This document shows positions 58,787-60,702 of a stretch of DNA of 64,000 nt, piece by piece. Every line of letters begins with the position of its first letter. The first letter of the stretch is position 1. The position numbers and the translations under genes were made by a program. Origin of the DNA: Melioribacteraceae bacterium (GTDB lineage Bacteria; Bacteroidota; Ignavibacteria; Ignavibacteriales; Melioribacteraceae); the NCBI GenBank assembly GCA_026417375.1, contig JAOADJ010000031.1, positions 62,001 to 126,000 on the forward strand, in the 5' to 3' direction. The notes under the pieces were generated by a model. It saw nothing but the letters and a program-made list of their open reading frames with translations. It made no database searches and was not told the DNA's origin.

Positions 58787-59686
58787 ATGGAACATTTTGA
58801 TTTAGCAATTTCATTCACTTGGGAATATGATTCTGATTTTGTTGAACTAATTGAAGATTACTTCCAATATTATGAATTAAAAACATATTTAATAAAACCC
58901 GATAATGTTACTGACGTTATCAATTTATTACAAAATAAAAAAATTCAGTTTACTGCACTCTTAGACAGAGCTTCAGATGAAGATGTTTCATTTATTCCTG
59001 TTGCCCAAATTTTGAAGAGAAGAAAAAGTTATATAATTAATCCTCATAACAAAATTGTTAAAACAATTGATAAATCTTTAATGCATATCAAACTGCAAGA
59101 AAATAATTTTAAGTTACCAAAAACTTTTATCCTTCAGTCTTTTAGAAACGATTACAGATTAACAATTACCGAAAAAGATTTAGAATATATTGGTAAACCA
59201 TTTGTCATTAAACCATCTCTTTTTAGTGGTGGTGGAGAAGGTGTGATAAAAAATGCTTATACATTAGATGAAATACAAAAATCAAGAATGAAAAGTCCAA
59301 ATGAAAAATTTTTAATTCAGGAAAAAATATCACCTACAAATATTAATGGAAAAAGAGCATGGTTCAGAGTTTTTTGGGCTTTCGATACAGTAATTCCTAC
59401 TTATTGGGATGATAAAACACATATCTATTCAACTTTATCTCAAAAAGAAGTAAAAGAAAAACACCTTCAACAATTAATTAAAATAACCAGAAGATTAGCC
59501 CAGATTACTAAGTTAGATTACTTTTCGACAGAAATAGCTTTAACAAAAGATCATAAATTTTATTTGATTGATTATATAAACGATCAATGTGATATGAGAT
59601 TGAAATCAAAACATATTGATGGAGTTCCGGATAAAGTTGTAAATAAATTTATTGAAAGAATGTATTATAAAATTATTTCGCTTTAA
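58787..59686 (+). CDS. ATP-grasp domain protein of unknown substrate
   Basis: A 299-residue protein with a RimK-like ATP-grasp fold. The N-terminal pre-ATP-grasp domain (1-100) has INPHNKIVKTIDKSLMHIKL. The ATP-binding part has GKPFVIKPSLFSGGGEGVIK (Lys plus glycine loop), FLIQEKISPTN and a C-terminal metal-binding segment (YFSTEIALTKDHKFYLIDYI, then NDQCDMR). Such enzymes ligate a carboxylate to an amine or thiol. Neither substrate nor pathway can be read from the neighbours (TPR gene divergent, rsgA convergent). The stop shares TTAA with rsgA. Confidence 0.78.
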   Translation: MEHFDLAISFTWEYDSDFVELIEDYFQYYELKTYLIKPDNVTDVINLLQNKKIQFTALLDRASDEDVSFIPVAQILKRRKSYIINPHNKIVKTIDKSLMHIKLQENNFKLPKTFILQSFRNDYRLTITEKDLEYIGKPFVIKPSLFSGGGEGVIKNAYTLDEIQKSRMKSPNEKFLIQEKISPTNINGKRAWFRVFWAFDTVIPTYWDDKTHIYSTLSQKEVKEKHLQQLIKITRRLAQITKLDYFSTEIALTKDHKFYLIDYINDQCDMRLKSKHIDGVPDKVVNKFIERMYYKIISL

Positions 59687-60636
59687 AAATTAATATCATC
59701 TTCGATTGTTTCTAAAATATTTAAATAACTTTGATACCTTTCATTTGATATTGATCCATTTTCAACAGCTTTTCTCACTTCGCAATCTGGTTCATGAAAA
59801 TGTGTACATGTATTAAATCTACAATCATTCAAGTACTTTTTAAATTCAATAAAATAATGACCTAAGTCTTCTTTCGTAATTCCATAAGGTTCTATTTCTC
59901 TAATACCGGGAGTATCAATTACAAAAGTATTTTCATCAATCTTGATTAAAATACTTGTAACAGTAGTATGTTTACCTTTGTTTGTTGATTTACTTATTTC
60001 TCCAATCTTTAAATTCAGATTTGGGTAAATTGAATTTAGTAAAGATGATTTACCAACACCTGATTGCCCCCAAACTAAACTGATTTTACCATTTAAAAAT
60101 TCTTTTAAATTATTAATTCCAAGATTCTCTTTAACCGAAGTTTCAATAACTGAATAACCAATTTGTTTATAAAGATTTGAAAATATTTTATAATTATTAT
60201 CATCATCTAAATCAATTTTATTAATAACAATTACACAATTAACATTTGAGCTTTCCCCTGTAATCAAAAATCTATCTATAGTTTTGTTATTTAATTGAGG
60301 ATTTTGAACACTTGAAACAATAATCAGGTTATCTATATTAGCAGCAATTTTTTGCTCAAGTCTTTCTCCACGATAACCTGCCCCTTTAATTCTAGGTGCT
60401 TTCCTTGAGATGAAATTTTTTCTTTCGTGAATATTTTCAATTACACCTGTACCATCATTGTTCAATGAATAATCAACAAAGTCTCCAACCACAACTAAAT
60501 CAACTTCAAAAAGTTTATCCTTCTTTAAATTAAATTCTTTTTGAAATTTCCCACGAAGTGAACATCTGATTTTATTTCCATCTTCAGAAAAGATGTAATA
60601 ATCTTTACTTTCAATTTTGTAAACTAAACCTTTTAT
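59683..60636 (-). CDS. rsgA: Ribosome small subunit GTPase RsgA with apparent ATA start
   Basis: A circularly permuted GTPase that checks 30S maturation. The GTPase part has VVINKIDLDDD (G4) before GQSGVGKSSLLNSIYP (G1) and DTPGIREIEPYG (G3); the C-terminal zinc motif is CRFNTCTHFHEPDC. The first standard initiator is GTG at 60492 (269 residues), which would cut off the N-terminal OB domain. The frame stays open 48 codons upstream and encodes that domain (IKGLVYKIES..., RCSLRGKF). The Met position of homologs falls on ATA (60636-60634), 4 bases after AAAAGGTGA, a good ribosome site. I annotate the full length (317 residues). A non-canonical start or a point mutation are the options. Confidence 0.85.
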   Translation of the reverse strand: MKGLVYKIESKDYYIFSEDGNKIRCSLRGKFQKEFNLKKDKLFEVDLVVVGDFVDYSLNNDGTGVIENIHERKNFISRKAPRIKGAGYRGERLEQKIAANIDNLIIVSSVQNPQLNNKTIDRFLITGESSNVNCVIVINKIDLDDDNNYKIFSNLYKQIGYSVIETSVKENLGINNLKEFLNGKISLVWGQSGVGKSSLLNSIYPNLNLKIGEISKSTNKGKHTTVTSILIKIDENTFVIDTPGIREIEPYGITKEDLGHYFIEFKKYLNDCRFNTCTHFHEPDCEVRKAVENGSISNERYQSYLNILETIEDDINF

Positions 60637-60650
60637 AAGTCACCTTTTGA

Positions 60651-60680
60651 AAAGAGCATCTTAAAAATAAGATGCCCTTT
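60651..60680 (-). terminator. Probable terminator between the FadL-like gene and rsgA
   Basis: GCATCTTA (60656-60663) pairs with TAAGATGC (60668-60675), extended by AAAG/CTTT on the outside after one mismatch. It lies 22 bp beyond the stop of the outer-membrane gene and just before the rsgA ribosome site. On the minus strand CTTTTC follows, a weak T-run. Confidence 0.55.
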
Positions 60681-60702
60681 CTTTGCAGTCAATCAGAGGG
60701 AA

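Follow-up and report, generated by a model that had tools for sequence, protein, structure and literature searches.

To our knowledge, very few bacterial genes have been described with conserved AUA, AUU or AUC start codons (hereinafter, AUH), the foremost of them being infC, which codes for the initiation factor IF3. In the present work we analyzed a stretch of 64,000 nucleotides from a Melioribacteraceae bacterium (order Ignavibacteriales; assembly GCA_026417375.1, contig JAOADJ010000031.1, positions 62,001 to 126,000), referred to as the window, in which rsgA, the gene coding for a ribosome assembly GTPase, carries an ATA codon at the position expected for its initiator. The best explanation of the sequences compared is that this near-cognate rsgA start would be an order-wide feature, selectively kept in Ignavibacteriales.

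Concerning the closest described systems, IF3 represses non-canonical starts, hence the autoregulation of infC, and in IF3 mutants such initiation increases 3-15 fold (PMC5472188). Like infC (AUU, AUA or AUC, under translational autocontrol), rsgA keeps an AUH codon over a wide phylogenetic range, with a Shine-Dalgarno (SD) sequence and no standard alternative; however, its product is not the discriminating factor, any control of rsgA would be indirect, and outside this order the examined rsgA genes use standard starts. In Escherichia coli pcnB (cited in PMC1780047), an AUU codon similarly limits the synthesis of an RNA-acting protein, although this is a poly(A) polymerase and not a ribosome assembly factor. 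The GTC start of Streptomyces sigR, repressed by IF3, also sets the dose of the product (PMC5472188), and GTC occupies the rsgA start column of one member of the order (G072); nevertheless, sigR codes for a sigma factor, belongs to another phylum and was characterized experimentally, unlike the putative rsgA start. The Staphylococcus aureus genes ccpN (AUA) and cvfC1 (AUU) share with rsgA a conserved start and an extended, start-proximal SD, and in S. aureus reporters AUA and AUU starts give about 10% of the AUG expression (PMC13009471); the conservation of ccpN was reported between S. aureus and Bacillus subtilis, whereas that of the rsgA start extends across 50 sampled genera of one order. 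Lastly, the extended SD of the Flavobacteriales rpsU, a ribosome gene, is read by ribosomes lacking bS21 (PMC9976891), an example of an initiation site that may respond to the condition of the 30S subunit; in that case the sensor is the SD, whereas in rsgA the start codon is unusual, too. In kind, the rsgA start belongs with those of infC, pcnB, sigR, and ccpN.

The rsgA locus of the window includes the following features:

59683..60636, minus strand: rsgA, 317 codons from the proposed ATA start to TAA.
60634..60636, minus strand: ATA, proposed start codon, in a column that is ATA, ATT or ATC in 81 of 90 order members.
60640..60645, minus strand: Shine-Dalgarno AGGTGA with aligned spacing +1, which complements UCACCU of the 16S tail.
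60640..60642, minus strand: in-frame TGA, which rules out a start further upstream.
60490..60492, minus strand: GTG, the first standard start in frame, whose position is not conserved as a start among relatives.

The start region reads ...AAAAGGTGA CTT ATA AAA GGT TTA GTT TAC... on the minus strand (CTT, 60639-60637), and the frame stays open from the ATA down to the TAA at 59685-59683. An earlier note, made from the letters of this DNA, had reported that a TGA lies two codons before the ATA, that no ATG, GTG or TTG exists in the rsgA frame ahead of the GTG at 60492-60490 (48 codons in), and that the region upstream of this GTG encodes an OB-fold including RCSLRGKF; all of this holds, the latter residues being numbers 24-31 of the ATA-started protein. 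The product is an RsgA (YjeQ/EngC) protein with the OB-fold domain (Pfam RsgA_N, residues 2-66), the circularly permuted GTPase (RsgA_GTPase, residues 69-249) and the Cys/His C-terminal motif; it matches TIGR00157 with 246 bits, its best solved relative is the Thermotoga maritima EngC (1u0l, E 2.5e-60), and the motifs GQSGVGKSSL, DTPGIRE, and CxxxxCTHxHEPxC are present in the RsgA alignment. The search for a second intact rsgA in the same genome did not retrieve any, the window copy being the sole match.

The comparison then covered the start regions of 90 rsgA genes, drawn from three Ignavibacteriales families. ATA, ATT or ATC occupies the initiator column in 81 of them, beyond what chance would give, and, by genus, in 50 out of 56; in 63 of these 81 genes, no ATG, GTG or TTG is available from the upstream stop to the AUH codon. 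The third base of the column is A, T or C, and G was never seen among the 81; the fact that it drifts while AUH stays points to selection against AUG. Further down the frame, standard start codons occur at varied places, in most cases 14 to over 100 codons in, and several relatives have none within the first 120 codons. The nearest named relative, the isolate Stygiobacter electus 09-Me (79% identity, same genus as the window genome), has ATC in the column. Moreover, the ATA does correspond to the expected Met position, since family f13 of the same class harbors ATG in exactly this column (six out of six genes, without an SD, with a protein that begins like MKGIVCRIESKDYYV). According to these data, it is very probable that rsgA initiation at an AUH codon (the AUA at 60636-60634 in the window) represents a conserved feature.

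The sequences ahead of the start bear on the same issue. The 16S tail of S. electus is GGATCACCTCCTTTCT and contains UCACCU. The presence of an SD at a usable distance from the ATA, also reported in the earlier note, stands, and its best reading is refined to AGGTGA at 60645-60640. A clear SD match precedes 72 of 78 AUH rsgA genes, at an aligned spacing of -1 to +2 in 70 of these 72; this is the spacing of a start codon, since the ATG genes of the window genome (762 examined, 361 with an SD match) peak at the same distance. The median SD duplex energy is -8.6 kcal/mol for the 80 rsgA genes with a non-standard start versus -1.3 kcal/mol for the 15 with a standard one (p = 2e-8), that of the ATG genes of the genome being -4.2 kcal/mol, and the SD has mostly disappeared from the rsgA genes that moved to ATG. 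Such a strong SD and its spacing fit what one expects of an AUH codon that would act as an initiator needing help. The SD placement, together with the order-wide conservation of AUH, supports the suggestion of the earlier note that initiation occurs at the ATA, with a putative throttle like that of infC.

As regards the origin of this feature, in more distant members of the class and of the phylum the standard rsgA starts lie upstream of the conserved region. On the rsgA tree the non-standard start label takes nine changes, mostly scattered losses; the AUH codon was likely gained by the ancestor of the order and later reverted in some members. The resolution of the tree is weak, many of its rows are partial, and f13 lies inside a poorly resolved radiation; therefore, the ATG of this family may be either ancestral or a reversion.

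The analysis was extended to other genes. The IF3 gene, infC, is present in 30 out of 30 genomes, and in 22 of 23 genomes of the order its start is an AUC or AUU preceded by GAGG, implying that AUH initiation exists in these organisms; three f13 genomes have ATA, and the infC SDs are overall GAGG or AGGAG (L148-L175). In the same genomes rbfA starts with ATG (16 out of 16) and era with standard codons; the AUH trait is therefore gene-specific, and a lax start choice throughout the genome was rejected. A control scan of 1448 gene-like frames (about 1.84 Mb, a partial sample of the window genome), which detects a gene only if its first standard start is 10 or more codons downstream and may therefore underestimate the true set, revealed few frames whose coding sequence begins ahead of any standard start. 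They include infC, rsgA, a Ddl-like gene, an HNH gene, an apparent prfB frameshift, and several apparent broken frames or non-genes. The non-standard start is a property of a limited group of genes and does not reflect an overall lax initiation.

RsgA works at the decoding centre of the 30S subunit and aids the release of RbfA (reviewed in PMC9032327). In E. coli, AUC initiation increases 2-4 fold upon defects in 30S assembly, and the binding of IF3 to the 30S subunits of ksgA or rbfA mutants is weak (PMC10250234). By analogy with infC, an AUH codon joined to a strong SD would probably keep the expression of rsgA low and render it sensitive to IF3 inspection, and we regard the sensitivity of this start to IF3, taken by itself, as fairly likely. 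Given the known rise in AUC initiation when 30S assembly goes wrong, a feedback of RsgA synthesis on 30S maturity is possible. What the sequences show is the position of the AUH codon, its conservation, its coupling to the SD and its restriction to certain genes; initiation at the AUA in the cell, the repression by IF3 and the feedback are inferred. The AGGTGA would position the ribosome at the AUA, where rsgA translation would begin, and IF3 inspection of the AUH codon would keep this translation low. In the case of an RsgA shortage, immature 30S subunits that bind IF3 poorly would build up and initiate more readily at AUH, and extra RsgA would be synthesized; the newly made RsgA would in turn drive 30S maturation, closing the loop. 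With infC using the same codon class, ribosome assembly and initiation fidelity would be coupled via the choice of the start codon. The last step, in which RsgA production would act as a homeostatic sensor of 30S maturity, is a tentative one, and we consider it possible rather than probable.

Some data weigh against a kept, regulatory AUH start. Twelve of the 90 rsgA genes differ or are ambiguous, which implies that the AUH trait can be lost: six (L026, L041, L044, L046, L098, and L104) have an ATG or TTG start one to four codons upstream; three, which were counted among the 81 (L030, L084, and L095), have an ATG immediately before the AUH codon, without an SD, and probably start at this ATG; one (L099) has GTC; one (L071) has its ATA displaced one codon upstream of the column; and one (L106) is a divergent copy, excluded from the statistics. 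Furthermore, a conserved AUU start is shared by the Ddl-like gene, for which no role in the ribosome is known, and AUH therefore need not imply ribosome feedback. Lastly, the cited fidelity data (PMC10250234, in the portion available) come from E. coli and from assembly defects other than the loss of rsgA.

The main rival to the feedback loop is a fixed low dose without regulation. In this case, AUH would be the true start and at the same time a fixed brake, giving a constant low dose of RsgA, compensated by the SD, and sensing neither the IF3 level nor the 30S maturity; we assign it about an even chance. An AUH codon with a strong SD can merely set a level, as reported for E. coli pcnB (cited in PMC1780047), and the AUU of the Ddl-like gene shows the same codon class in use without a known ribosome role; in addition, six to nine members have adopted a standard start, and their SD is weaker, as expected if the level alone matters. 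However, the discrimination of IF3 against non-canonical starts is general (PMC5472188), and some sensitivity to IF3 is therefore expected wherever AUH is used.

The other alternatives question the start itself. The real start might be a downstream standard codon, the upstream region being an untranslated relic; the GTG at 60492 is indeed the sole standard start codon, but it would cut away most of the OB-fold domain, which the 48 upstream codons encode with residues invariant across 14 aligned proteins. Moreover, the first standard codon is placed differently in nearly every relative (beyond 120 codons in several), and the SD is spaced for the AUH codon, making this explanation very improbable. 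Just as improbable is an entry via frameshifting from a start codon located upstream in a different frame: the SD does overlap a GTG, both in the window (60643-60641) and in S. electus, but the upstream sequences of the relatives share neither a common frame nor a slippery site, and this GTG belongs to AGGTGA and is gone where the SD is GGAGG. Finally, the mutation (the second option of the earlier note) or misreading of an ATG in this copy is rejected, because, even though ATA is one base from ATG and f13 has ATG there, the relatives of the same genus and order (an isolate and single-contig genomes among them) carry ATC, ATT or ATA, and ATG was not seen in the column of the sister genomes.

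Upstream of rsgA, a further feature was identified:

60650..60682, minus strand: terminator-like inverted repeat AAAGGGCATCTT / AAGATGCTCTTT, separating rsgA from the outer-membrane protein gene that precedes it.

In many genomes such a hairpin ends about 15-25 nucleotides ahead of the rsgA start. A conserved leader structure specific to rsgA was considered and rejected, the hairpin looking like the terminator of the preceding gene; it is absent from about half of the relatives and present before the ATG-started rsgA of L110 and, therefore, is not tied to AUH. It leaves no evident space for rsgA to have its own promoter, and attenuation or read-through is possible.

The scan also led to observations on other genes. 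The Ddl-like ATP-grasp gene (Dala_Dala_lig_C; L195:545-1639, minus strand) starts with ATT (ATT AGT TCT ...) behind AAAGGA and, in the window genome, has 68 codons without a standard start; the ATT is kept in ten out of ten near relatives (L198-L207) and in family f2. The HNH endonuclease gene (L308-L322; G000:C10:135922-136455, plus strand) has an apparent GTC start in 12 and ATC in two of 15 order genomes, with GGAGG 3-4 nucleotides upstream in most of them, TAA often immediately ahead, and a near-invariant TTCGAAC immediately after. An RF2 (prfB)-like frame (L290:9507-10556, minus strand) extends for 87 codons past the upstream stop without a standard start, which fits the known programmed frameshift of prfB. 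At L194:2701-3720 (plus strand), ATG TAA directly precedes the coding frame, which looks like a gene whose second codon is a stop or like a further case of an unusual start.

Neither a non-canonical rsgA start nor an order-wide AUH codon in a ribosome assembly GTPase was found in the literature searched, subscription papers lying largely outside it. The gene rsgA would represent a second gene of the translation machinery with a conserved AUH start, and this across a whole order. From a practical viewpoint, gene finders admitting only ATG, GTG, and TTG miscall rsgA, infC, and at least one further gene in Ignavibacteriales, with the loss of the RsgA OB domain. If it is true that IF3 reads the rsgA start, these bacteria would possess a simple and testable circuit linking ribosome assembly to initiation fidelity.
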